Positions 5,612 through 21,312 of a stretch of 21,407 bases of DNA are shown one piece after another; the first letter of the stretch is position 1, and the number at the start of each line of letters is the position of its first letter. The DNA is taken from IMG/VR virus record IMGVR_UViG_3300047551_000196, positions 1 to 21,407 of that record; one strand, 5' to 3'. The notes beneath the pieces are model-generated. The model saw only the letters and a list, made by a program, of their open reading frames with translations. It was not told where the DNA came from and did no database searches. The stretch comes from a virus. The position numbers and the translations under genes are program-made.

Positions 5612-7819
5612 TTACGCCGCCAACAGGCCGCCAGGCCGCTTCTGCTTGATCAATTCTGCCTGAACCGCCTGCGAGATCGCGCGGCCCAGCTGCTCGCCTT
5701 GGCCGCCGTTGCCCTGCACGCTGGTGCCCTTGGCATCCACGTTCACCACCACACTGGTGCCACCACCACCTGCCACGCCCAGTTTGCCGTCGCGGCCGCG
5801 CTTCAGCGGCATGATTGCCTCCGGGCCAGCCTCTCCCATCAGGCCCAGTCGGCCGGCGCCGCCGTTGGCGAATTTGAACAGCGTGGGGCTGTTGACGATG
5901 CCGCCAGACGCAAACGGTTGGATGCCGTTGGCGAACGTGCCGCCGTTGGCAAAGATGCCGCCCGGCACCAGCTTGGTAGTGGAGAGCGCATTGGCGCCAC
6001 TGAGCGCGCCACCACCGCCAGGGATCAAGTTCTGGATCAGCTGCAGGATCGGCGCAATGATCAGCATCCGCGTCACCATCCGCGTCAGGTCCTCGATCAC
6101 CGACAGCGCGAAATCTTTGAAGCTAAACTTACCCGTCATCGTCAGGCTGACGATTGCATCCTCAAGACCCTTGAAGGCGTTTTGCGCCACGTTGCTGATG
6201 TTCTCAGCCAGCGTGCCAATGCTCTCTAGGTAGGAGTTAATGCCACCTTGCGCGCCTTGAATTGCTTGGCTCTGCAGCTCGATGGCATTGACAAACTCCA
6301 TCGCGCCGATGGCGGCTTGTGCAGCTTCGTCACCGATCGCCTTGATGCCTTGTTGGTACTCCTTATCCGCAAGTGCGACGTTGCCCTCCGAGATCTTCTT
6401 GATGAGATCCTCGAACGGCTTGATGTCGATCTGACCGCCAGCTGCGTTGATCTCCACAGCCAACTGCACCACGTCGCGGGTGAGCTGATCCACCAGCCGG
6501 CTGTTCTCGGTGATCGCCGCGCTGCGCCGTAGCTCCAGCGTCTCAAACTCATTGGCACCCACGCCCGCATAAGCAGCGTTGAGATCTTCCAAGCTCTCGC
6601 GCAGCTTCTGCTGCATGTCCAGCGCGCGCTGGCCAAGGTCGCGCCGGCGCTCCTCTAGGCGCTCCTGCTCCTTAGCGGCACGCTTGGACGCGGCCTCAGC
6701 CTTCTTTGCTTCTGCTTCTGGATCGGAACGCCCTGGCAGCAATGCTGGGATGGGGCGCAGTGTTGGCGGCTTAAGCCTGTCGGTTTTCTGGAACTCAGGC
6801 TGCTGCTGCAACAGTCTGATGAAGTTCTGAGTGTCGAAGCCAAAACCCAAAAAGCCAGGCCCGGCCTGCTGCTGCAGCTGACGACGCCGCGCTTCTCCAA
6901 TGATCCGATCGAGCGCCTCAGGTCCACCAAACGGCAGCTTGCCCGCCTTGATTGCAGCCCTAGTGTCTGCCTCCTGCGGTCCGTTGATTGCAGTCTTGAT
7001 CGCTAGGTTGATCGTGTCGAGGATGTTGATCGCGTAGTCCAGAATGGCCTTCATCGCAGGCGCCAGGATGTTGCCCAGCGTCTGAGAGAGGGCTGTGATG
7101 TTGTCCTTCAACGTGCTGAACTTGCCGTTCAGCGTGTCGCTCTGTGCAATGGCACCGTCTGCGTACTTGCCACCTGCATCAGTAAGCCGCTTGATCGCCA
7201 GCTCAACAGCCTCGGCGCTGATGCGGCCGCCCTCCAATGCCTTGGTGAACTCCTGCCCCTGCAGCTTGTACATCCGCTGCAGCTCCTCAGATAGCGCCAC
7301 GCCGCGCTCTTGGAACTGCAGCAGCTCCTCGCCTTGCAGTCGCCCCTTGGCCACAACTTGCCCGTAAGCAGTCGCCAGTTCCGTCAAGTTGGCGCCAGTT
7401 GCACCAGCCACATCGCCAAGGTTTTTCACCACCTCAACAACACGCACCGACTCGATGCCAAAAGCGTTCAGGCGCTTTGCTGTCTCGATCAGCTCTGTTG
7501 ACTCAAAAGGAGTTGCCGCTCCGTAGGACTGCAGCTCTCTGATGATCTGCGATGCTTGCTGTGCGCTGCCAGTCAGAACCTCGAGACTCTTGGCTTGGCT
7601 TTGCAGGGTGGCAGTGTCACCGAAGATCTTGGTGAAGATGACGCCGCCGCCAACCAGGCCAATCAGGCCGCCGATGCCGCCGCGCAACCCAGCCATCGCT
7701 AGGTTCAGGTTTTTCACGCGGCCCTCGACGCCCTGCATCGAGTTGCCGAGCCGGCGAATGTTGTTCTCGCCTTGAACGTCCGCCTTGATGCGGAGCATGG
7801 CGTCCATGTTCATCGCCAT
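5612..7819 (-). CDS. Tail tape measure protein, lambda gpH family
   Basis: Sets tail length and is thought to be released into the host during DNA entry. It has 735 residues; with the usual relation of about 0.15 nm per residue the tail would be roughly 110 nm (inference). The N-terminus includes a hydrophobic glycine-rich segment (about 44-62) and the tape-measure N-terminal domain with ATPFESTELIETAKRLNAFG. A charged coiled-coil stretch lies at about 365-415. A hydrophobic segment follows (MLIIAPILQLIQNLIPGGGG). The C-terminal signature GEAGPEAIMPLKRGRDGKLG is at about 661-680. AGGAG stands 8 bases before the ATG at 7819, one base after the T-frame stop. Met3, Met5 and Met8 are alternative starts. 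Confidence 0.95.
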   Translation of the reverse strand: MAMNMDAMLRIKADVQGENNIRRLGNSMQGVEGRVKNLNLAMAGLRGGIGGLIGLVGGGVIFTKIFGDTATLQSQAKSLEVLTGSAQQASQIIRELQSYGAATPFESTELIETAKRLNAFGIESVRVVEVVKNLGDVAGATGANLTELATAYGQVVAKGRLQGEELLQFQERGVALSEELQRMYKLQGQEFTKALEGGRISAEAVELAIKRLTDAGGKYADGAIAQSDTLNGKFSTLKDNITALSQTLGNILAPAMKAILDYAINILDTINLAIKTAINGPQEADTRAAIKAGKLPFGGPEALDRIIGEARRRQLQQQAGPGFLGFGFDTQNFIRLLQQQPEFQKTDRLKPPTLRPIPALLPGRSDPEAEAKKAEAASKRAAKEQERLEERRRDLGQRALDMQQKLRESLEDLNAAYAGVGANEFETLELRRSAAITENSRLVDQLTRDVVQLAVEINAAGGQIDIKPFEDLIKKISEGNVALADKEYQQGIKAIGDEAAQAAIGAMEFVNAIELQSQAIQGAQGGINSYLESIGTLAENISNVAQNAFKGLEDAIVSLTMTGKFSFKDFALSVIEDLTRMVTRMLIIAPILQLIQNLIPGGGGALSGANALSTTKLVPGGIFANGGTFANGIQPFASGGIVNSPTLFKFANGGAGRLGLMGEAGPEAIMPLKRGRDGKLGVAGGGGTSVVVNVDAKGTSVQGNGGQGEQLGRAISQAVQAELIKQKRPGGLLAA

Positions 7820-7820
7820 G

Positions 7821-8102
7821 TCAGCTGCTCCTATTGATGCTCAGTAACGCCGCGGCTTCCATCACCTGCAGATCCTCCAGCAGAGCGCGCGGGTCTTCCA
7901 CTTCGTACAGTCTAAGGAGCCACGCCACAGCCCCATAATCGAGGCCCAGCAGGCCGCTCATTGTGGTGCGCCACTGTGTCTGTAGGCGTAGGAACATCTC
8001 GACCGCCGGCCAGTTCTCCTCAAACACCTCGAAATCCTCCGGCGGCTGCTCCGGCATCACGATGCCAAGGGTTGCCGCGTCTGCTTCCGTTTCATCAATC
8101 AC
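7821..8102 (-). CDS. Tail assembly chaperone T part (DUF1799-like), probably made as a G-T frameshift fusion
   Basis: The stand-alone frame starts at a GTG at 8102 and gives 93 residues. The core ENWPAVEMFLRLQTQWRT, followed by GLDYGAV and VMEAAALL, matches the DUF1799 phage family. The same frame is open upstream through KLIEAAEHWASGG back to the end of the G gene, with no start signal there. This extension fits a -1 frameshift at 8138-8144, giving a 224-residue GT fusion spanning 7821-8494 (119 residues of G plus 105). In lambda the equivalent T domain recruits the tail tube protein to the tape measure. I favour the fusion as the functional product; independent GTG initiation is possible but no good ribosome site precedes it. 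Confidence 0.85.
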   Translation of the reverse strand: MIDETEADAATLGIVMPEQPPEDFEVFEENWPAVEMFLRLQTQWRTTMSGLLGLDYGAVAWLLRLYEVEDPRALLEDLQVMEAAALLSINRSS

Positions 8103-8144
8103 GCCGCCGCTAGCCCAGTGCTCGGCGGCCTCTATCAGTTTTTT
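8103..8144 (-). promoter_or_regulatory. Programmed -1 ribosomal frameshift signal (slippery heptamer plus hairpin)
   Basis: In the G frame the last codons are CGA AAA AAC TGA, so the heptamer A AAA AAC (8144-8138) sits in the correct phase directly before the G stop codon. After an 8-base spacer (TGATAGAG) comes a 7-bp GC-only stem, GCCGCCG (8129-8123) pairing with CGGCGGC (8109-8103), around a 13-base loop. Slipping back one base enters the T frame at CTG (8138). Heptamer type, phase, spacer and stem all match known -1 frameshift elements, and the G/GT gene position is where lambda uses one. Confidence 0.88.
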
Positions 8145-8494
8145 CGCTTGGCTCCCTTGATGCTGTCCATGTACGCCTTCAGCACCGCAACAGCGAGAAA
8201 CGGCACCTCCAGCAGTTGCTCCAGTGCCTTCTGGCTGTAGGGAATCTCCTTGCCGTCGTCGCCAGTCACGCCAGACCAGCCAACCAGCACATCGCCAGCG
8301 ATCTCGGTCAGCCGGTCCAAATCGTTCAAATCTTCCAGCTTCATCATCTCGGCCACCATCGGACCGATCTTGCTCTGCGGTAGGCGTTTGAACTCGCCGT
8401 CGAACGTCTGTTTTTCGTGTCGGCCACCATCGACGGGAACGTCAAATGTGACCGGCCAGATGTAGGTGTCGGACTGCTTGAGAACAAACGCCAT
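8135..8494 (-). CDS. Tail assembly chaperone G (lambda gpG-like position)
   Basis: A 119-residue protein between the tail tube and tape-measure genes, the invariant place for tail chaperones that coat the tape measure during assembly. The sequence is mixed alpha/beta with a lysine-rich end (SIKGAKRKN) produced by the slippery site; lambda gpG is 140 residues. Sequence similarity alone would not name it: the call rests on position, size and the frameshift into a DUF1799-like frame. AGGAG lies 7 bases before the ATG at 8494, 12 bases after the tail tube stop, so it probably has efficient independent initiation. Confidence 0.85.
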   Translation of the reverse strand: MAFVLKQSDTYIWPVTFDVPVDGGRHEKQTFDGEFKRLPQSKIGPMVAEMMKLEDLNDLDRLTEIAGDVLVGWSGVTGDDGKEIPYSQKALEQLLEVPFLAVAVLKAYMDSIKGAKRKN

Positions 8495-8506: not shown

Positions 8507-9436
8507 TCAGGTGAAAGCGAGGCTCAGCTCATCATTGCCGGCCGTGGTCGGAGTGGCAACGTAGGGGATGCTCAGCATCTGCACGCCATCCTGATCCGCG
8601 TAGGTCGGGTTGGTGATGTCGCACTGACCAGCGGTGAAGGTGACACGGTTGCCGGCGGTGGTGCCGTGCAGGAACGTGAGGTTTCCGGTGGTCTCGGTCT
8701 GGGCGATGTTGAAATAGTCCTTAGTTGCCAGTGCCGGGGCCTCGATCAGCACGGTGCCGCTGGGGGCACGATTGGTGATCAGGATCTCTTTTGTGCAGCC
8801 AACAAGCTCGCGGTAGACCGTCTCATTCGCCATGTCGAAGCTGACCGATTGCAGGCAGCCGGCATAGCTGAAGAACTGGAACGATGAGGTGTTGCCTTGC
8901 TTGAAGATCAGCGGGCTGGCCTGCGCGCTGTAGGTGGTTGTGGGCAGCGCCGTATCGGTCGGTGCGTTGTAGACGCCCACCATCGTGAAGTCGATCGTGG
9001 GGATCTGGCCCACTTCACCGGTCAGCGTGAAGGTGCCGCGGCAGCCGGTCAGGATGTGGCGGATACCGTCGTTGTTGAAGTAGATCGTGGCAGAGCTGAA
9101 GCTGCTGCTCACCGGCGCGTAGGTCACGCTGGTGCTGGCCACGATCGTCTCGCTGAGGCCGCAAGCCTGGAGCAGGGAACCGTAGCGGGGGGCAGTGCCG
9201 GCGGTACCGGAGCCGGCCAGCTCCACCTGGAAGGTGATGCTCACGCGGGTGTTGGCCAGCAGCTGCGGGCTGTTGCCCAGGTAGTTACGGATCAGATCAC
9301 GGCTGACCACATCAGCCTCGATCGGGGTGATCTCCAAGTTGCGCACCAGCAGGGCATCGGTGCCGGCAGGGCTGCTGTCGGTGCCGTAGGTGCTTTCCTT
9401 CTTAACCTGGATCAGTCTCTTGCGTGTCAGAGCCAT
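8507..9436 (-). CDS. Major tail tube protein (lambda gpV-like position)
   Basis: A 309-residue beta-rich protein that would polymerise around the tape measure to form the tail tube. It begins MALTRKRLIQVKKESTYGTD, a typical opening of siphophage tube proteins. It has the alternating beta pattern expected of the family, including GCRGTFTLTGEVGQIPTIDF near the middle. It is longer than lambda gpV (246), perhaps through an added C-terminal beta domain, but no Ig domain could be assigned with confidence. Its start lies inside the preceding 55-aa gene with a 35-base overlap; a GAGGTG ribosome site stands 7 bases before the ATG. The junction resembles the one before the FII-like gene. Confidence 0.88.
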   Translation of the reverse strand: MALTRKRLIQVKKESTYGTDSSPAGTDALLVRNLEITPIEADVVSRDLIRNYLGNSPQLLANTRVSITFQVELAGSGTAGTAPRYGSLLQACGLSETIVASTSVTYAPVSSSFSSATIYFNNDGIRHILTGCRGTFTLTGEVGQIPTIDFTMVGVYNAPTDTALPTTTYSAQASPLIFKQGNTSSFQFFSYAGCLQSVSFDMANETVYRELVGCTKEILITNRAPSGTVLIEAPALATKDYFNIAQTETTGNLTFLHGTTAGNRVTFTAGQCDITNPTYADQDGVQMLSIPYVATPTTAGNDELSLAFT

Positions 9437-9569
9437 CGCTCTTCACCTCTGTTGGGGGTTGTGAGGGATTGGCCGGCTCTGTCCGCTCAATGAGCTTCCG
9501 TTTGCCGGTTTTCGGGTCCAGCAGGTAGGTCCCGCCTTGCCCGTGGTATTCGTCCACCATCGTAGCCAT
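9402..9569 (-). CDS. Small protein of unknown function between tail terminator and tail tube genes (55 aa)
   Basis: The ATG at 9569 overlaps the stop of the U-like gene (TGATG), and the frame closes with TAA at 9402-9404. The product starts MATMVDEYHGQGGTYLLDP, continues with KTGKRKLIERTEPA and ends in a polar tail containing EVKSDGSD. The N-terminal half looks like a conserved small motif; the tail may exist mainly because it overlaps the tail tube start by 35 bases. It fills what would otherwise be a 132-base gap in an operon with almost no gaps, which supports it being real. I do not recognise a function. Confidence 0.6.
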   Translation of the reverse strand: MATMVDEYHGQGGTYLLDPKTGKRKLIERTEPANPSQPPTEVKSDGSDTQETDPG

Positions 9570-9997
9570 CACGCTGTTGCCAGATTAGTCACACTGGTGC
9601 GATAGCGGATCAGGTAGTCGCAGCTGATCACGCCAGCCGGCTGGTCCGCTTCCACCATCTCAAAGTTCACACTCTGCGGCTGGATGTCGATCGCGTAGCC
9701 GCCCAGCGTCAGGTCCGCCATCAGCCGGCTGTGCATGTTCTCCACGATCGGGTCGGCCTGCTGGTCTGGGATGTTGCCGCGCACGATCACAGCCACCCGT
9801 ACAGTCAGGCTCCAGTCCAGCGTGGGCAGGCTGGTGTTTTGCTCCGCCTGATCTTGCACCGGCTCGACCACGATCGCCGGGCTCTCGGCGCGTGCCATCG
9901 GCTCCACACGACTGCGGTAGATCCGCGTGCCAACGCCCGTGGTGCCGGTAAGGGCCGTGCGGACAGCGGCTAAAATGGTTTCGCGTCGAGTAGCCAT
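9569..9997 (-). CDS. Tail terminator protein, lambda gpU-like
   Basis: A 142-residue protein resembling the gpU/tail-terminator fold. It has an N-terminal helix (TRRETILAAVRTALTG), a strand block with SPAIVVEPVQDQAEQN, a central WSLTVRVAVIVRGN strand, then a helix and a final CDYLIRYR strand near the end. Lambda gpU is 131 residues with the same order of parts and caps the tail tube at the head-proximal end. It lies before the tail tube gene as U does before V. Start and stop overlap its neighbours by one base on each side (TGATG). Similarity is structural and weak in sequence, with gene order giving strong support. Confidence 0.8.
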   Translation of the reverse strand: MATRRETILAAVRTALTGTTGVGTRIYRSRVEPMARAESPAIVVEPVQDQAEQNTSLPTLDWSLTVRVAVIVRGNIPDQQADPIVENMHSRLMADLTLGGYAIDIQPQSVNFEMVEADQPAGVISCDYLIRYRTSVTNLATA

Positions 9998-10274: not shown

Positions 10275-11417
10275 TCAGTAGGTCATCTCCGTGGTGTCTA
10301 TGCGGCAGACCCATCGGATTGTGGTGGCTGCTGCGCCGGTGACCGTAACGGCAATACCGCCGTTTGTGGTGTCGGCGGTGACGGCAACAACCCAAGAATT
10401 GGAAGCGCCATCGTTGTGCGTCCTAGTGACTGTAGGCGTGCCAACCATTACGGTCGATGCTGCGTTAGCGCCACGCTTGATTGCACCATCAATCGTCCAC
10501 CGTGCGGTGGCGCCTGCTGCCGTGACGCCTGCGATCACCTCGCCGCTGAAGCTGTAGGCGCTGTTATTCGGCAGGATGACTTGGTTGGTGGTTGTGCCCG
10601 GTTGGTTATTGCTAGCGAGAACCGTTGCGGTAGCATCAGTGGTTTGGCGGGCTAGGAGCAGAAGCGCGGATTGTGTAGATCCAGCCGCACTAGATACTGG
10701 CTGGTTACATGCAGGAAAAACGTGATAGCCAACAATACTTCTTGTGTTGCCACTAGCCCCACCCATCACTGCCGAATAACTTCCTGATGCAGTGTGTACT
10801 CCACCTCCTCCAATAAAAGTAGAACGACCAGAAGCCGTATTGCTTTCCCCACTTGCTACACACGCATTCGCCCCACTCGCCGTATTGCTATTACCCCCAC
10901 ACACCACAGCGTGCGTGTTGGTTTGGGCGGTGTTGCTCTGGCCTCCGCCGACGAAGGAGTAGTTTGAGGTTGCTTGATTTGAGGCTCCGGCGGCTGTTGC
11001 GCTCCAAGCGGCTGTTGCGCGATTGTCGTATCCTCCCCCTATAAACGCATTAGCGCCAGTGCCATATGTGCTATCTTGCCCTCCGCAAATAACGCTAAAT
11101 ATGCCGCTTGCAAGATTGTTTTGCCCCCCGCACACAACGGAATAGTTCCCGCTAGCAACTTGCGTAGCAGTGGTCCGAAATTTCTGTAAATCCGTCGCAA
11201 ACTGCCCCCGTTTATCGCCACCCGCTCTCGTCCCATCCGGCACCTGCGCCAGCGTCGCGCCTGTACCCTTGGCGACCAGAGCGATGTCGGCATTGGTGGC
11301 GCTAATTGTGCCGCCGTTGATCTCGGTGACGGGCGTGGTGCTATTGACGCCCTCGCTGCGCAGACGTGCAACAAGCCGCAGCAGTGGTGACGCCCAACCT
11401 GCAGTGTTTAGGTTCAC
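10275..11417 (-). CDS. Fibre/adhesin-like protein with YadA-head-type repeats
   Basis: A 380-residue protein. The N-terminus (1-80) is a short beta/linker region. Residues about 88-222 hold eight or nine degenerate repeats of about 14-16 residues with the pattern N-T-A-S-G-x-x-S-x-V-x-G-G (for example NTASGANACVASGESNTASG). These resemble the left-handed beta-roll repeats of trimeric adhesin heads and phage fibres. Several repeats carry Cys before GG, which is unusual. The C-terminal domain (about 240-380) is beta-rich and ends RIDTTEMTY. The start is GTG at 11417, overlapping the previous stop (GTGA), with a GGGGGTGA-like ribosome site upstream. The repeat tract uses many codons ending in A or T, unlike its neighbours, suggesting separate origin. 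Likely a receptor- or surface-binding fibre; ligand unknown. Confidence 0.8.
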   Translation of the reverse strand: MNLNTAGWASPLLRLVARLRSEGVNSTTPVTEINGGTISATNADIALVAKGTGATLAQVPDGTRAGGDKRGQFATDLQKFRTTATQVASGNYSVVCGGQNNLASGIFSVICGGQDSTYGTGANAFIGGGYDNRATAAWSATAAGASNQATSNYSFVGGGQSNTAQTNTHAVVCGGNSNTASGANACVASGESNTASGRSTFIGGGGVHTASGSYSAVMGGASGNTRSIVGYHVFPACNQPVSSAAGSTQSALLLLARQTTDATATVLASNNQPGTTTNQVILPNNSAYSFSGEVIAGVTAAGATARWTIDGAIKRGANAASTVMVGTPTVTRTHNDGASNSWVVAVTADTTNGGIAVTVTGAAATTIRWVCRIDTTEMTY

Positions 11418-11809
11418 GTCAGGTCACCCCCGAATGCAGTGACGCGCACGGTGCCGGTGGTTGGCTGCACAGTGATCGTTGCGCCAAGCTTCCATGATGC
11501 GCTTGGCAGCACAAGATCCGTGTAGGCGGTTACCAGGCGGTAAGCCTTGGCGGTATTGCTGCCAGTGGTGGCGCTGATCGTGATCTGATCGAACAGATCC
11601 CACTGCGTCCCATCCCACAGGAAGATGTTCACCAGTGCCGCAACGGTCGTCGCGGTGCCTTGCACGTTGATACTCAGCACACGAGTGCCAGCGCTGACGC
11701 CAGTGATCAGATCAGTGATCGTGCCGGTGCCATCCGTTGCGGTGTTGGCTGTGCTCAGTGAACAACGCCCAATGCGCGGAGTGGAGACAAAAGCGGGTGA
11801 GGCAGCCAT
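11414..11809 (-). CDS. Unknown beta-rich structural protein in the fibre block (131 aa)
   Basis: A 131-residue protein with an alternating strand pattern suggesting a single beta-sandwich: SAGTRVLSINVQGTATT, AALVNIFLWDGTQWDLFD, then SWKLGATITVQPTTGT. No catalytic motif, signal peptide or membrane segment is seen. It lies between two fibre-like genes, 3 bases from the upstream stop and overlapping the downstream GTG start by 4 bases, so it is probably a virion accessory or decoration/fibre subunit. That role is inferred from position and composition only. Confidence 0.72.
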   Translation of the reverse strand: MAASPAFVSTPRIGRCSLSTANTATDGTGTITDLITGVSAGTRVLSINVQGTATTVAALVNIFLWDGTQWDLFDQITISATTGSNTAKAYRLVTAYTDLVLPSASWKLGATITVQPTTGTVRVTAFGGDLT

Positions 11810-11812
11810 GGC

Positions 11813-12079
11813 TTAGATGCAGTTCTGGTTGAGATAGAGGTTGTCACCGACGGAGCTGCCTCCGCCGCCACCACCTGCTGTTGCCCACGACAGCACACCA
11901 GATCCATTGGTGCTCAGCACTTGACCGCTGGTGCCATCAGCAGACGGCAGTGTCCAGATGCGGTTGGTAGTGATGATGGCAGGAGCCTTGAAGCCGACAT
12001 AGGCGGATGAGTCCGCATCAGCCAGCCGCAGCTCGCGTTGCGCGTTGAGCGTTATGTCGGTTTCAAAGACCCGTGCCAT
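11813..12079 (-). CDS. Small tail-fibre-like protein (88 aa)
   Basis: An 88-residue protein opening with MARVFETDITLNAQRELRLA, a pattern common at the N-terminus of phage fibre components. A fibre linker motif follows (GTSGQVLSTNGSGVLSW, about 49-65) and then a run of glycines. Comparable motifs (AGEVLKYDGTQWV) occur in the FII-like protein upstream. It is short enough to be an adaptor or a remnant of a longer fibre, but its start and stop are intact, and its ATG overlaps the previous stop (TGATG). Function as an adaptor is inference. Confidence 0.72.
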   Translation of the reverse strand: MARVFETDITLNAQRELRLADADSSAYVGFKAPAIITTNRIWTLPSADGTSGQVLSTNGSGVLSWATAGGGGGGSSVGDNLYLNQNCI

Positions 12080-12870
12080 CAGCCGATCACCACCACGCGG
12101 TAAGCATTAACGCCAGGCGCTGTTGCAAACACCAGCGTTGCAGTGGTTGTGGTGGGGCGATACACATCCACTTCAACGTCGTCGTAGTTGCCGGAGTTGG
12201 GGAACACGCGGATGATCACGTCGCGGGTGTTCAAGCTATGCGTGATCGTATAGCTGGTGGCGCTGCCGTCGCCCACGTTGGTGCTGTACTTTTTGATCCG
12301 CCCGGACCACGTAGCCAGCTTCAGCGGCGTGACGATGCGAAGGTCATCGGTGCCAGCATCAACCTCGGCCTGCGTGGCGATCTCGGCAATACCAGGAGTT
12401 GTCTCGCTAGCGGCAGGCGCTGCAGCGGCAAACGATGTCCAGATGACATTGCTGCTGTCGATCGTGCCGTTGATCTGGGTCTGACGCCAAGTGGTGCCAG
12501 CGTCGGTGCCTTCCTCGACGGTGATGATTGCCTGCTCAAGCTCAGCAAAGGTGCTGGCATCAAGCGAGCGGGTCATGGCGACCGCAGCGCCATTCCACAC
12601 ATAGATGCCGTTCTGGCTTTGCGTGGATTGGTTGCGCACCAGCACCCGATCTTGGGATGCCATGGTCACGCCATCAATGGTCGAGCCAGGGCTGCTCAGG
12701 TTGATATTGCTTTGCGTGCCAACACGGGCGCTATCCTTCCATGCCAGACCTTCAACCGCAGAGTCCACATAGGACTTGGGCACTGCGTCGCCCGCTGCGC
12801 TAGGCGTGGGCAGGTTGGTAACTCTGGAGGCCGACTGGAAATCGAAGTCGGTAAAGATCTTCCGAGCCAT
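12079..12870 (-). CDS. Tail-fibre-like protein, modular
   Basis: A 263-residue modular fibre protein. The N-terminal part (1-45) is a typical fibre start ending SAAGDAVPKSYVDSAVEG. Residues about 46-148 form a common phage fibre domain (TIDGVTMASQDRVLVRNQS, NGIYVWNG). Residues about 156-185 carry the fibre motif TPGIAEIATQAEVDAGTDD followed by LRIVTPLKL. A C-terminal beta domain (about 198-263) contains SYTITHSLNTRDVIIRVF and is paralogous to the end of the neighbouring FII-like neck protein. The ATG follows that gene's stop by one base. Its place beside neck genes rather than after J is unusual and suggests a head- or neck-attached fibre, not shown here. Confidence 0.82.
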   Translation of the reverse strand: MARKIFTDFDFQSASRVTNLPTPSAAGDAVPKSYVDSAVEGLAWKDSARVGTQSNINLSSPGSTIDGVTMASQDRVLVRNQSTQSQNGIYVWNGAAVAMTRSLDASTFAELEQAIITVEEGTDAGTTWRQTQINGTIDSSNVIWTSFAAAAPAASETTPGIAEIATQAEVDAGTDDLRIVTPLKLATWSGRIKKYSTNVGDGSATSYTITHSLNTRDVIIRVFPNSGNYDDVEVDVYRPTTTTATLVFATAPGVNAYRVVVIG

Positions 12871-13685: not shown

Positions 13686-15578
13686 TCAGGTGGTGATGTC
13701 AAGGATGGCGGCAAAGCTCTTGGGATCGCGCACGGCCACGTCGTAGGTGACGATGCCGCGAACGCTGGTCAGAGCCTTGCTGAAGTCGTCCTGATCCTCG
13801 CCCACGGTGATCTCAAGGCCGTTGCCCCAGAAGCCCACCATTGCCTGCGAGAAGTCACCCATCACCAGAGCGGAGCAGACGCCGCTGCTGCTGCCCTTGG
13901 TCAGGTTGCTGGGAACCTGGTTGGTCAGGGCGAGGGGGTAGCCGTTCAGGTTGGCGGGGGTCGGACCGCGGCCGATGGCGTTCAGCTGATCGTTGACCAG
14001 GAACGGACCGTCGCCAGTGGTGGAGCCACCAGCACGCAGCTTCTTCAGAGCAGCGGAGACCTTGTAGTTGGTGAGATAGGCCACGTTGGCGGCGTTCACC
14101 ACACCGTTAGCCTGCATCACAGCAGACTCAAGATCCACCACCTTTTCAACGGTGATAGCGCCACCGTTGGTGCCCATGGCCACCGAGCCGATGCCGGAGG
14201 TCTGCATGATGCCGGTGGGCTGGCCGCTGGAGCCAGAACCGTTCAGAATGCCCAGGTCGATGGAAAGGTTGATGCCATCGGTCAGGTCACGGCGCACCAG
14301 CTCCTCGATGCCAGGGGTGCCCTGCAGCAAGGTCTGGCGGCTGTACTTGGACAGGGCAGCCAGGTTCTTGGGGCTCATGGTCACCTGGTCGAAGGTGGAC
14401 TCCGACTGGGTGATCGCGGTGGTCTGGGTGCTCAGGTAGTAGGTCGAAGCAACACCAGAGCGGCGGGGGATCGCCACGTTGCCCACCAGGCCAGGCATGG
14501 TGCGAACACCAAGCTGGAGCATCAGGGCGTTGTTCCGCAGGAACTCGATGAACTCATCGGCCAGCAGATCGGTCTGCACCAGGTTGCCGCCGGTGGTAGC
14601 GCCGGAGGTCACATAGGTGGCACGCTTGCCGCCCAGCGCAGAGAAGGGAACGAAGAAGCTGCGCTCAGTGGTCTTGCTGATGCCAGACTTTTCCACCTCG
14701 CGGGACAGCTCACGCACCAGGCCAGCCTCGCGGCTCGACCAGTCGCCGGTCAGCATCGCGCGGATGCCAGCGGTCAGGCTGTAAGCAGCGCGCTCATCGG
14801 ATGCCATCTCCACAGGGGCGACGGTCTCCACAGGTTTGGCGCCCAGCTTGTCGAGCACAGCAGTGCGAGCCTCATCGAGGCTGCGGCCGCTTTCGATCAG
14901 CTGGCGACCAAGATCGGCCATGCCGTGCTTCTCAGTCAGGGCAGTGATGCCGGCAATGCGGGCGCGCTCGGCTTTTGCAGCCTCAGCAGCCGCTTCAGCC
15001 CGCACCGCCGAGATGTCGGGGGTGTTTTCCATCGGAACCTCAGGTTCTGTTTCGGGGGTTGGTGATGCGGCGGAGGCCGCAGGATCAGTCTCTAGAGACC
15101 GACCCACACCCACAGTGGGGTCTGCAGGTATGCTAACCACGCTCACTTCGTAGGGAGCCCAGCTGGTAGCGACGAAATCACCGCTGCCGCGTTGCTCCAT
15201 TTCGTTGATCGCGTAGCCGAAGGATACATTGCGAAGAACGCCATCCTTCACATCAGCCAATACTTCCTGCGCGAACGCATTGCGGCTGAACTTTACCGTG
15301 GCATAGCCACGCTTTTTGTCTCCATCAATCCACGCGCGCTCCACCACGCCGATCACTTTGTTGGGATCGTGGTTGAACAGCAGCGGCGCCGAATCATTCA
15401 AACGGGAGAGATCAGCGCTGCGCGCATCATGCTGCAGCACCTCATTCCCGAAGTAACGGGCGACGGGATACTCACTAGAGAAGGGGAACTCAATGCTGCG
15501 GCCGTCTTCGCTGACCGTAAAGTCAGCTACCTCGGCGCGCTTCAATAGCTGCCCTTCAAGATCACGCGATAGGTCCAT
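13686..15578 (-). CDS. HK97-type prohead protease fused to major capsid protein
   Basis: A single 630-residue frame. Residues about 1-165 form a U35-type prohead protease, with candidate catalytic His70 (LLFNHDPNKVIGVV) and Ser119 (LRNVSFGYAI). A linker (about 165-185) leads to an alanine/glutamate-rich helical delta (scaffold-like) segment at about 183-260. The rest is an HK97-fold capsid, with SGATTGGNLVQTDLLADEFI, VAIPRRSG and SGSSGQPTGI. An open frame extends to an ATG at 15641, but the ATG at 15578 is preferred: it has GAGG about 6 bases upstream and overlaps the portal stop by only 17 bases. An internal ATG at 15032 with its own GAGG could make a protease-free capsid of 448 residues. 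Confidence 0.92.
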   Translation of the reverse strand: MDLSRDLEGQLLKRAEVADFTVSEDGRSIEFPFSSEYPVARYFGNEVLQHDARSADLSRLNDSAPLLFNHDPNKVIGVVERAWIDGDKKRGYATVKFSRNAFAQEVLADVKDGVLRNVSFGYAINEMEQRGSGDFVATSWAPYEVSVVSIPADPTVGVGRSLETDPAASAASPTPETEPEVPMENTPDISAVRAEAAAEAAKAERARIAGITALTEKHGMADLGRQLIESGRSLDEARTAVLDKLGAKPVETVAPVEMASDERAAYSLTAGIRAMLTGDWSSREAGLVRELSREVEKSGISKTTERSFFVPFSALGGKRATYVTSGATTGGNLVQTDLLADEFIEFLRNNALMLQLGVRTMPGLVGNVAIPRRSGVASTYYLSTQTTAITQSESTFDQVTMSPKNLAALSKYSRQTLLQGTPGIEELVRRDLTDGINLSIDLGILNGSGSSGQPTGIMQTSGIGSVAMGTNGGAITVEKVVDLESAVMQANGVVNAANVAYLTNYKVSAALKKLRAGGSTTGDGPFLVNDQLNAIGRGPTPANLNGYPLALTNQVPSNLTKGSSSGVCSALVMGDFSQAMVGFWGNGLEITVGEDQDDFSKALTSVRGIVTYDVAVRDPKSFAAILDITT

Positions 15579-17136
15579 CGGTGTCCTCGATGTCATCCTG
15601 TTCATTATCGGGGGTCTCGGTCTCGGCAGCCTCGGCTGCACTTTCCGCCGGCTCCATTCCGGGGTCCTCCATCGCCTCGTGCTCGTTCTCGGGGTTGGTG
15701 TCGAAGTAGAGGTCCAGCTCTTCGGCGCGATCTACCTCGGCCTTGCGGGCCAGCAGCAGCTCCTCAAGGTCGCCGCCTTGCTCGGCCACCACGTCCGCCT
15801 GCGTCTTGAACCCGCAGCGCACCGCTTCCTTGTACGCCTGCACTTCTTTGCCGGGGTCCACCCACGCCCAGCCGCGCGGCATCCACCGCACACGCCGATA
15901 GCGATCAGGATCGGTCTCATACGCCGGCAGATTCAACGCACCACCGAGCACCGCCATCTCCAGCCATGCCTCAAACACCGGTCGGTGGAAGTTCTCAATC
16001 ATGTACTGCTGCAGCGCCTTCCAGTTCTCACGATCCTCCAGCAGGCTCAGCCGGCTGCTGCTGTAGTTCGTCTGGCTGAAGTCCCGGCTGATCGTCTCGT
16101 AGCTGCAGCCAACACCGGCCGCCATGGCGCGCAGCATCGCCCGCAAAAACGGCTCCAGCTGGCCATCAGGTGCATCGAGCTGCGGCACCGTCACGCTTTC
16201 GCCTGGCGCCAGGTACTTGAACACGCCGGGCTCAAAGTTGCTGACCCGTTCGTTGTCGTAGATCTCATCACCCAGCAGCTCACCCTCAGGGCTGGTGATG
16301 AAGCCCATCAAGCTGCTGCTAGCCCGTGCGCGCACCACCTCGGCCTGCTCATAGCCCGAGAGCATGTGCAGCCGCTGGATCGCACTCGCCAGCCAAGGCA
16401 CGCCTCGGGTCTGGCCGGGGCGCTCCTGTTGGTAAAGATGAAGCACCTCAGCAGCAGGCACCAGCCGGTGGCGTGCCGTGGTGCTAGGCCCGAACGTCGA
16501 GTCGCCGGGGTGCTTTGTCAGGAACGCATACTGCACCGGCCGCCCCCAGCGGTTCAGCTCGATGCCCATCCGCCATTCGTTGCCCTCGATCGTGCTGGCG
16601 CCCGTGTAGTTGTCGTCCAGCAGATCACTCTCGATGATCTCCAGCGCGAACGGCACGCGGCTGGCACCGAACGGCTGGCGCACCATCCGCACGAATACCT
16701 CGCCGGACTCCGCCATCGCACCCACCAGCAGGCGCTCGATATCAGTGAAGCTCAGCCGGCCGGCCGTATGGCAGCTATCCTTGCGCCCCCAGTCAGACCA
16801 TGCCAGCTCGATCGCATCGTTGACCGCCTGATCCAGCCGGCCACCACCGCGCTGCATCCGCACCTGCGCCTGCATCTTGATGCCGGTGCCGATCACGTTG
16901 TTACGCACCGCACGGATCGTCTGGCGCGCATAGTCGTTATCCCGCACCAGCTGGCGCGAGCGGTTGCGCAGCCGTGGCAGGCTGCCCTTGATCTCAGCGT
17001 CCGCGCTGGTGCCGCCTGTCACCCAGTCGCTGGTCAGCCGGCTGACCCGTGCGCCCTCATACATCCGGCGCCGTGGTGCTGGCATCGGGGCGGCGCCCTG
17101 CTGCAGCCAGCCAAGTATCGAGGATCGGATGCCCAT
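15562..17136 (-). CDS. Portal protein, lambda gpB family
   Basis: Dodecameric portal ring through which DNA is packaged and ejected. It has 524 residues (lambda gpB is 533). Family features include RDNDYARQTIRAVRNNVIG (65-83), SGEVFVRMVR (about 145-154), the IIESDLLDDNY segment and a central region with MLSGYEQAEVVRARASSS. The C-terminus is acidic and glutamate-rich (from about 475), probably disordered. The ATG overlaps the upstream gpW-like stop by one base (TGATG); the end overlaps the protease-capsid start. Its position W-B-C/E is the lambda order. Confidence 0.95.
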   Translation of the reverse strand: MGIRSSILGWLQQGAAPMPAPRRRMYEGARVSRLTSDWVTGGTSADAEIKGSLPRLRNRSRQLVRDNDYARQTIRAVRNNVIGTGIKMQAQVRMQRGGGRLDQAVNDAIELAWSDWGRKDSCHTAGRLSFTDIERLLVGAMAESGEVFVRMVRQPFGASRVPFALEIIESDLLDDNYTGASTIEGNEWRMGIELNRWGRPVQYAFLTKHPGDSTFGPSTTARHRLVPAAEVLHLYQQERPGQTRGVPWLASAIQRLHMLSGYEQAEVVRARASSSLMGFITSPEGELLGDEIYDNERVSNFEPGVFKYLAPGESVTVPQLDAPDGQLEPFLRAMLRAMAAGVGCSYETISRDFSQTNYSSSRLSLLEDRENWKALQQYMIENFHRPVFEAWLEMAVLGGALNLPAYETDPDRYRRVRWMPRGWAWVDPGKEVQAYKEAVRCGFKTQADVVAEQGGDLEELLLARKAEVDRAEELDLYFDTNPENEHEAMEDPGMEPAESAAEAAETETPDNEQDDIEDTDGPIA

Positions 17137-19587: not shown

Positions 19588-20089
19588 TGCCCAAGCCCTC
19601 CAAGGCTTGCCCGATCTCCTTCAGCAGCATCGCGTGGATCTTCGCCTGGTCGGTCTCGGCCGCCACGATAGGCGCCACCCGGTCAGGGATGGTGCGCAGG
19701 CTGTCGCGCACCGCCATGTGCAGCTTGGCCAGTCGCATCTTCAGCTCGGCCTTGTCCACCAGCCGCCCGCTGCGCTGGTCGTACTCCAGCCGCGTCAGCC
19801 GCGCCGCATACGCCTCACGGATTGCCCGCGACTGCGCAAACGACGGGATGGCCGCCGCCTGGTTCTGCTGCTGCACCAGCGCCTGGTCAATCGCCGGTGC
19901 CCCGCCACGCCCGCCACGGTCCGGTGCCTTGGCCGCGGCCACCTGACGGTCCAGCTCCTGTGCATCCGCCACCATCCACCGGCGGCCTTCCTTGCGCAGC
20001 GCATCGCTGGTGAACCGGCCTTGCCCAGCCCACTTGCTCAGCTGCGTGTACTCGACCTTGCGGTCCTCGGCGTACTGCAGCAGGTTCAT
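19571..20089 (-). CDS. Terminase small subunit, Nu1-like
   Basis: A 172-residue protein (lambda Nu1 is 181). The N-terminal part (1-45) looks like a winged-helix DNA-binding unit (MNLLQYAEDRKVEYTQLSKW, then GRRWMVADAQELDRQV), as used by Nu1 to bind cosB. A low-complexity linker with GGRGGAP follows. The central helices have AARLTRLEYDQRSGRLVDKA, a pattern typical of Nu1-type small subunits, and the C-terminal helical region should contact the large subunit. The ATG overlaps the methyltransferase stop by 4 bases (ATGA). Gene order (small then large terminase) supports the call. Confidence 0.87.
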   Translation of the reverse strand: MNLLQYAEDRKVEYTQLSKWAGQGRFTSDALRKEGRRWMVADAQELDRQVAAAKAPDRGGRGGAPAIDQALVQQQNQAAAIPSFAQSRAIREAYAARLTRLEYDQRSGRLVDKAELKMRLAKLHMAVRDSLRTIPDRVAPIVAAETDQAKIHAMLLKEIGQALEGLGSAISD

Positions 20090-21312
20090 GCAGCATCCTC
20101 AGGGAACAGCTCGCCCGTCGCCTCCAGCGTGGCGCGCTTGCCCGTGAACGCCTGCCACCGCTTCACGATCACGTCGCAGTAGCGCGGGTCCAGCTCCATC
20201 AGCCGCGCGTGGCGGCCGGTCTTCTCGCAGGCAATCAGCGTGCTGCCGCTGCCGCCGAACAGGTCGAGCACGAAAGCGCGCTTGTCGCTGAAGTCAGCAA
20301 GAGCGCGTTCGGCAAGCGCCACCGGCTTCTGCGTCGGGTGAACGTAGGAGGCCGCGGCGTCCTTCGACACTTGCCACACCGCCATGCCGCGACTGCCGCG
20401 GAACTTAGGGCTGCCTTTTGCGCAGAACAATGCCAGCTCGTAGTCCAGCGCGTACTGACCCTCCAAGTCACCCATCCCGCCGCCGCCTTTGTGCCAGACG
20501 ATGGTCTGCTTGTAGAACTGCTCAAACTGCGCTCGCCACACCGGATAGACGTGGTGGCTGGTCCAGATGAACGCTGCCGTGTTGTCGGCCATCGCCTCCC
20601 AGACCACCGGCGCGATGTCCAAGATCTTGTCGTCGTTCTGCAGCACGTCAAAGCGTTTGCTCATGTTGGAGCGAAACTCCACGCCATAGGGAGGGTCAGA
20701 AAAGACCAGGCCAGCCTTCTTGCCATCCATCAACCGCTCCACCTCAGTCAGCGATGTGCTGTCACCGCACATCACACGGTGCTTTCCCAGCAGCCACACA
20801 TCCCCCGGCTTGCTGATGGGATCCTCCGGCGGCTCCGGTGTGGCCTCATCATCCGCATCTTCCGGCGGCAGCTCCTCCACATCCGGCAGCAGGTCCGCCA
20901 GCTCGTCATCGCTAAAGCCGATCAGGCTCAGGTCAAAGTCCTGCTCCGCCAGGTCCTGAAGCTCCGCCCGCAGCAGGTCGGTGTCCCACCCGGCGTTCAG
21001 CGCCAGCTGGTTGTCCGCGAGGATGTACGCCTTGCGCTGCCGCTCACTCAGGTGGTCGAGCACCACCACCGGCACCGTCTTCAGTCCCAGCTCCTGCGCA
21101 GCCATCAAACGGCCGTGTCCGGCGATGATCCCGTCGTGGCTGTCGACCAGCACCGGGTTGGTGAACCCGAACTCCACAATCGACGCCGCAATCTGCGCTA
21201 CCTGCTCTGCGCTGTGCGTCCTTGCGTTCCGTTCGTATGGCCTTAACCGCTCCAACGGCCATAGCTCGATCCGCTTGGCCATGGCGATGGTGAGGCTGGC
21301 GTCTGCTGTCAT
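20086..21312 (-). CDS. ParB-like domain fused to a DNA methyltransferase (beta class)
   Basis: A 408-residue two-domain protein. Residues about 10-145 form a ParB/Srx-type domain with GIIAGHGRLMAAQELG (61-76) and ILADNQLALNAGWD. An acidic linker (about 145-167) leads to an amino-methyltransferase: motif IV SDPPYG (205-210) comes before HPTQKP (325-330) and the S-adenosylmethionine motif LDLFGGSGSTLIACE (349-363). This order places it in the beta class (adenine-N6 or cytosine-N4; DPPY favours adenine-N6). No restriction nuclease is adjacent, so it is probably a solitary phage methylase. Met11 is an alternative start; neither start has a strong ribosome site. It may protect phage DNA or mark sites for regulation or packaging; target unknown. 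Confidence 0.92.
   Translation of the reverse strand: MTADASLTIAMAKRIELWPLERLRPYERNARTHSAEQVAQIAASIVEFGFTNPVLVDSHDGIIAGHGRLMAAQELGLKTVPVVVLDHLSERQRKAYILADNQLALNAGWDTDLLRAELQDLAEQDFDLSLIGFSDDELADLLPDVEELPPEDADDEATPEPPEDPISKPGDVWLLGKHRVMCGDSTSLTEVERLMDGKKAGLVFSDPPYGVEFRSNMSKRFDVLQNDDKILDIAPVVWEAMADNTAAFIWTSHHVYPVWRAQFEQFYKQTIVWHKGGGGMGDLEGQYALDYELALFCAKGSPKFRGSRGMAVWQVSKDAAASYVHPTQKPVALAERALADFSDKRAFVLDLFGGSGSTLIACEKTGRHARLMELDPRYCDVIVKRWQAFTGKRATLEATGELFPEDAA

Follow-up and report, generated by a model that had tools for sequence, protein, structure and literature searches.

A programmed -1 ribosomal frameshift, by which two tail-assembly chaperones would be made from one mRNA, is very probably encoded on the minus strand of IMG/VR viral contig IMGVR_UViG_3300047551_000196. 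The whole stretch of this contig that was analyzed, 21,407 nt, is referred to below as the window. The original prediction of such a frameshift is supported by conservation of the site among relatives, by coding constraint in the -1 frame at the junction and by fold matches to tape measure chaperones. We infer the following course of events in the cell. Most ribosomes would translate gene G and terminate at its TGA, giving a protein of 119 aa. A minority would pause at a hairpin 8 nt downstream with Lys- and Asn-tRNA on A AAA AAC, where the tRNAs would re-pair on AAA AAA, one base back; translation would then continue in the -1 frame to a predicted G-T fusion of 224 aa (119 + 105). An upstream AGGGAG sequence possibly adds to the slippage. 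By analogy with lambda, G would bind the tape-measure protein and recruitment of tail-tube subunits would fall to the T part; assembly would therefore depend on how much of each form is made relative to the other. The elements of the site and the flanking genes are located as follows.

9569..9997, minus strand: tail terminator (PHROG 4204, E 6e-42)
8507..9436, minus strand: tail tube protein, directly before G (Phage_tube_2, E 9e-26)
8135..8494, minus strand: gene G, 119-aa tail assembly chaperone (ATG 8494..8492, TGA 8137..8135)
8152..8157, minus strand: SD-like AGGGAG, 7 nt upstream of the heptamer, a possible stimulator
8138..8144, minus strand: slippery heptamer A AAA AAC in the reading phase of G
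8135..8137, minus strand: TGA stop of G, directly abutting the heptamer
8103..8129, minus strand: stem-loop (stem 8129-8123 with 8109-8103, loop 8122-8110)
8100..8102, minus strand: GTG next to the base of the stem, the earliest codon at which T could start independently
7821..8138, minus strand: T part, post-slip -1 frame of 105 codons with a DUF1799 domain (stop 7823..7821)
5612..7819, minus strand: tape measure protein (735 aa) whose gene follows T directly (Tape_meas_lam_C, E 1e-21; TMP_3, E 3e-21)

The gene order is thus tail tube, G, T, tape measure, and the two overlapping frames lie between the tube and tape measure genes, the placement known from lambda G/GT and anticipated for this site. 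Minor tail proteins of the Phage_min_tail and Phage_tail_L types come downstream of the tape measure gene. In profile searches G matched PHROG 569 (E 8e-18) and PHROG 313, 'Tail assembly chaperone' (E 2e-7). Phage_TAC_4 (PF08748) gave a full-length match to G of 17.9 bits (E 0.004); since this score is under the curated cut-off of 21.1, G was kept out of that Pfam family. The -1 frame is free of stops from 8441 down to 7823..7821, and the 105 codons predicted to follow the slip are all present (8138..7824). The DUF1799-like domain that had been suspected in this frame was identified well above the curated cut-off (PF08809, E 3e-17, 62.9 bits against 26), and the T part also matched PHROG 680 (E 4e-28). 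PHROGs 569 and 680, together with many GenBank records, name these chaperone halves 'tail length tape measure protein', and the G gene of Synechococcus phage S-LBS1 carries the label ABC transporter ATPase. Both labels look like misnaming.

AlphaFold2 models of G and T had a mean pLDDT of about 85 each, and searches of a viral structure library with these models point to a chaperone-type fold for both halves. G matched Gp15 of an Edwardsiella phage (E 2e-4) and the tape measure chaperone of Serratia phage Scapp (E 0.002), while T matched the tape measure chaperones of F20, W011D, Solomon and Scapp (E 1e-5 to 3e-4). The Scapp protein, a fused entry of 236 aa, was matched from both G and T. PDB sequence searches with G and T and a PDB fold search with G returned nothing meaningful, and lambda gpT was not among the matches of T in Pfam, PHROG or the viral structure library. 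In the models G closes with a helix (residues 100-118) and T opens with a helix (residues 2-10) across the junction residues; an unbroken helix through the fusion junction is a plausible reading of these models.

The last codons of G are AAG CGA AAA AAC TGA, with the predicted heptamer in phase and immediately before the stop. The sequence AAAAAAC by itself is not rare, the window holding one copy where 0.66 are expected. Its significance lies in its placement, because a slip heptamer abuts the G stop in 35 of 43 dissimilar lineages (<70% alike after the slip), whereas the ends of 688 other ORFs of at least 80 codons from these loci show no canonical XXXAAAN or XXXTTTN heptamer in that position. 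Counted by site, the abutting stop was found at 172 of 181. The stop itself varies among the 35 lineages (TGA in 22, TAA in 9, TAG in 4), and GGGAAAC takes the place of AAAAAAC at 12 of the 181 sites, in 9 of the 43 lineages.

Close relatives, where loss of the heptamer and of the frame relation would have counted against a frameshift, retain both almost throughout. In a set of 81 sequences, comprising the window and 80 relatives with 82-100% identity in G, AAAAAAC stands in phase and immediately 5' to TGA in 80. The remaining sequence (L010) keeps the frame relation but reads AAAAAGC at the end of G, which makes a poor site for tandem slippage. A scan of genomes for close relatives yielded a single 3.3-kb contig in a Burkholderiales MAG, which is too little to name a host.

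Distant relatives behave likewise. Scans that started from Synechococcus phage S-LBS1, from RcapMu and from a Vibrio phage, to which one genome contig was added, gave 54 sequences with a readable stop, which was abutted by AAAAAAC in 51 and by GGGAAAC in one; of the other two, one (L140) also carries the site and one (L137) has an extra A. Among isolates, A AAA AAC TGA is present in S-CBS1, S-LBS1, S-CBS3 and ZX4290, and G GGA AAC TGA in RcapMu and RcWaterboi. All 12 further DUF1799 phages examined, from Rhodobacter, Pseudomonas, Pantoea, Serratia, Cronobacter, Klebsiella, Thiobacimonas, Aeromonas and Escherichia, have one or other heptamer abutting the stop, as does Stenotrophomonas phage S72. 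In DUF1799 loci of Burkholderiales, AAAAAAC or GGGAAAC was found in phase and at most 9 codons from the zero-frame stop in 28 of 30, abutting it in 19; in one locus the heptamer is 18 codons before the stop (L161) and in one there is none (L178). A sub-group of these loci (L180, L181, L183 and L187) has one sense codon between AAAAAAC and the stop, and in the first three a stem follows the heptamer. The locus with the extra A (L137), a Vibrio-type prophage with eight As in place of seven near its position 1565 and G and T fused in frame, was considered as natural proof of a fused gene and rejected. Another poly-A run in this locus (near 288) likewise exceeds its L136 counterpart by one base, which makes a sequencing error the probable source of the extra A.

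A few relatives without a canonical heptamer count against a programmed frameshift, these being L178 and the Webervirus phages, along with the AAAAAGC variant among the close sequences. In the Webervirus phages KingDDD (L156) and Kilian (L157) G ends in A AAA GTC TAA, and the -1 frame still runs on into DUF1799; here a single-tRNA slip on A AAA may operate in place of the tandem slip.

The codons between the slip and the first possible start of T bear on how T is expressed. Automated annotation was predicted to call two separate genes, and this is what is seen in the records of relatives. In the window the earliest ATG, GTG or TTG of the -1 frame is the GTG at 8102, directly 3' to the stem, so that a two-gene call drops 12 residues of the fusion (LIEAAEHWASGG), the number originally given. 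T could in principle be a separate gene, initiated at this GTG or by termination-reinitiation at the G stop, with no fusion made. The pattern of substitution makes this very unlikely. Among 38 distinct junctions, single-base codon differences were synonymous in 73% of cases when read in the -1 frame, in 16% in the zero frame and in 41% in the other frame, and variation was concentrated at the third codon position (0.160, against 0.029 and 0.048 at the other two). As the pattern fits the -1 frame, protein is the simplest reading of the junction codons, including the 12 upstream of GTG 8102, and no entry into the -1 frame other than a slip at the heptamer was seen there. The start itself is not conserved: across relatives the first possible start of T shifts from 5 to 45 codons from the junction, or is absent. 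Separate genes would also give no reason for the conservation of heptamer and stem. A Leu invariably follows the slip, but it was dropped as independent evidence because AAC followed by any stop must yield CTG or CTA.

The predicted hairpin begins 8 nt after the heptamer, stop included, and has the GC-only, 7-bp stem that was expected, GCCGCCG pairing with CGGCGGC (about -18 kcal/mol). Its loop of 13 nt is able to form 3 more pairs. The 42 nt 3' to the stop fold more stably than about 97.5% of the window's same-phase pieces (2.5th percentile). When the 42 nt following the heptamer and next codon were compared with same-phase pieces of the same loci, the 43 lineages lay at a median 3rd percentile of stability, with 26 at or below the 5th percentile (KS p 4e-14); about a quarter of the lineages are without unusual stability after the slip. 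Stems occupy about the same position across lineages and differ in sequence (in S-LBS1, for example, GCCGCTGTAGA with TCTATAGCGGC). Among 39 close variants each of the seven stem pairs is retained in 36-39, the changes being mostly G-C to G-U. Since most stem changes in close relatives are one-sided, covariation is weak and the argument for structure rests on the distant lineages. An Rfam search over the window gave no match.

The AGGGAG element, which was not part of the original prediction, ranks at the 4th percentile of same-phase pieces for pairing with the anti-SD. Stimulation of the dnaX kind, by an upstream SD and a downstream stem around the slip site, is a possibility here: all three elements are present in the window, the SD-like one at a spacing of 7 nt and with only a weak trend across the family. 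An internal SD as a family-wide stimulator was considered and rejected; it is good in the window and some lineages, with a weak trend overall.

If the fusion is made, slippage of RNA polymerase on the six-A run could be its source in place of the ribosome. The As do form a homopolymer, and bacteria are known to show transcriptional slippage on A runs (PMC5009743), but six As are short for it, and the stem at a fixed distance after the site fits a ribosomal mechanism. The GGGAAAC version interrupts the homopolymer yet keeps tandem tRNA re-pairing, which argues for ribosomal over transcriptional slippage; we consider the polymerase a very improbable source of the fusion. An error of sequencing or assembly in a one-frame gene, or gene decay, is already refuted by the number of independent sequences, for although homopolymer runs are error-prone, and the in-frame prophage (L137) and STSR3, which has five As at the site, look like errors, the same frame relation, with TGA, TAA and TAG all used as stops, recurs in more than 100 sequences from contigs and isolate genomes.

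The preferred reading, programmed ribosomal frameshifting, places the window site within the known lambda G/GT system. As in lambda, the site lies between the tail tube and tape measure genes, the shift is in the -1 direction near the end of the first gene, and the predicted products are an in-frame protein and a rarer fusion. The lambda slip site is G GGA AAG; here it is A AAA AAC, the stop abuts the heptamer and the second half is DUF1799. The first two of these departures from lambda had been pointed out originally and hold for that comparison, but they are the rule within the DUF1799 family. Frameshifting of the lambda g-t type is widespread in tailed phages (PMC5009743; Xu, Hendrix and Duda 2004), and in an HK97-like tail chaperone cluster two genes gave 6-7% in reporters (PMC3711429). 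The average slip-to-stop distance is given as 36 nt for the Xu set and as 26 nt for SEA-PHAGES (PMC10274946); on these averages an abutting stop is unusual for tail chaperones generally and normal in the DUF1799 family.

Frameshifted tape measure chaperones have been described in the T1-like phages Stevie (PMC4319613) and Solomon (PMC8407766), and the records of Smarc2 (A AAA AAC TGA) and RcapMu (G GGA AAC TGA), both with abutted slips, are annotated with the frameshift. Some DUF1799 phages thus already carry the frameshift annotation. All four share gene order and the T domain family DUF1799 with the window; their proteins are only distantly similar to those of the window and their stem sequences differ. 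The two slip sequences, G GGA AAC and A AAA AAC, also serve tail chaperone frameshifting at the g-t sites of the haloarchaeal viruses HCTV-1 and HCTV-2, a likeness of slip sites in viruses of an archaeal host (PMC5009743). Among systems with unrelated proteins, IS1 uses AAAAAAC on E. coli ribosomes (PMC12428005), and dnaX has an upstream SD, slip site and stem-loop, some bacterial dnaX genes also having a zero-frame stop directly after the slip (PMC5009743). E. coli dnaX differs in using A AAA AAG, with an efficiency of about 50%. It counts against the proposed frameshift that, when E. coli ribosomes are used, A AAA AAC is the weaker of these two slip sequences (PMC5009743).

A literature search, in which naming varies by author and subscription papers were largely outside coverage, found no paper treating DUF1799 and frameshifting together, and none calling a stop-abutted XXX-AAAC slip a hallmark of nearly the whole DUF1799 family. 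That such a slip is near family-wide for DUF1799, with few exceptions, is well supported by the sequence comparisons and is a useful extension of the lambda system. DUF1799, which has records in over 1000 phages, is still a domain of unknown function by its Pfam name and a tape measure by its PHROG name; almost wherever examined, it has the look of a frameshift-appended chaperone half. The findings support a two-product tail chaperone in an environmental phage lineage that is widespread, and they offer a rule for annotation: the gene 5' to a DUF1799 domain should be checked for A AAA AAC or G GGA AAC abutting its stop.

The DUF1799 sites also form a natural set for asking why a stop directly after the slip is kept. 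One speculative answer, to which we give a rather low probability, is that the stop is part of the mechanism, the slip occurring at least partly once AAC has reached the P site and the A site holds the stop. Release-factor supply would on this hypothesis compete with the shift and set the G:GT ratio, and the DUF1799 family would be a large natural set of release-factor-sensitive -1 sites on bacterial ribosomes. A precedent of sorts comes from earlier work described in PMC4373837, where placing a stop behind the HIV-1 slip sequence reduced frameshifting on bacterial ribosomes and gave sensitivity to the cognate release factor; we liken this engineered site to the naturally abutted sites of the family. 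Retention of a stop, with interchange of TGA, TAA and TAG, could mean that release-factor competition helps to hold the fusion at a low level. More simply, an ancestral layout may just have been retained.

Other regions of the window have features of their own. Four minus-strand ORFs at 10275-12870 separate the head-tail attachment protein from the tail terminator, and three of them were scanned against Pfam and gave no match; the product of 10275-11417 contains repeats of the type VVCGGxxNxASG. A single ORF at 13686-15641 encodes both a prohead protease (Peptidase_S78) and an HK97-type capsid protein, and a fusion of a ParB-like domain with a DNA methylase at 20086-21312 adjoins the terminase genes.
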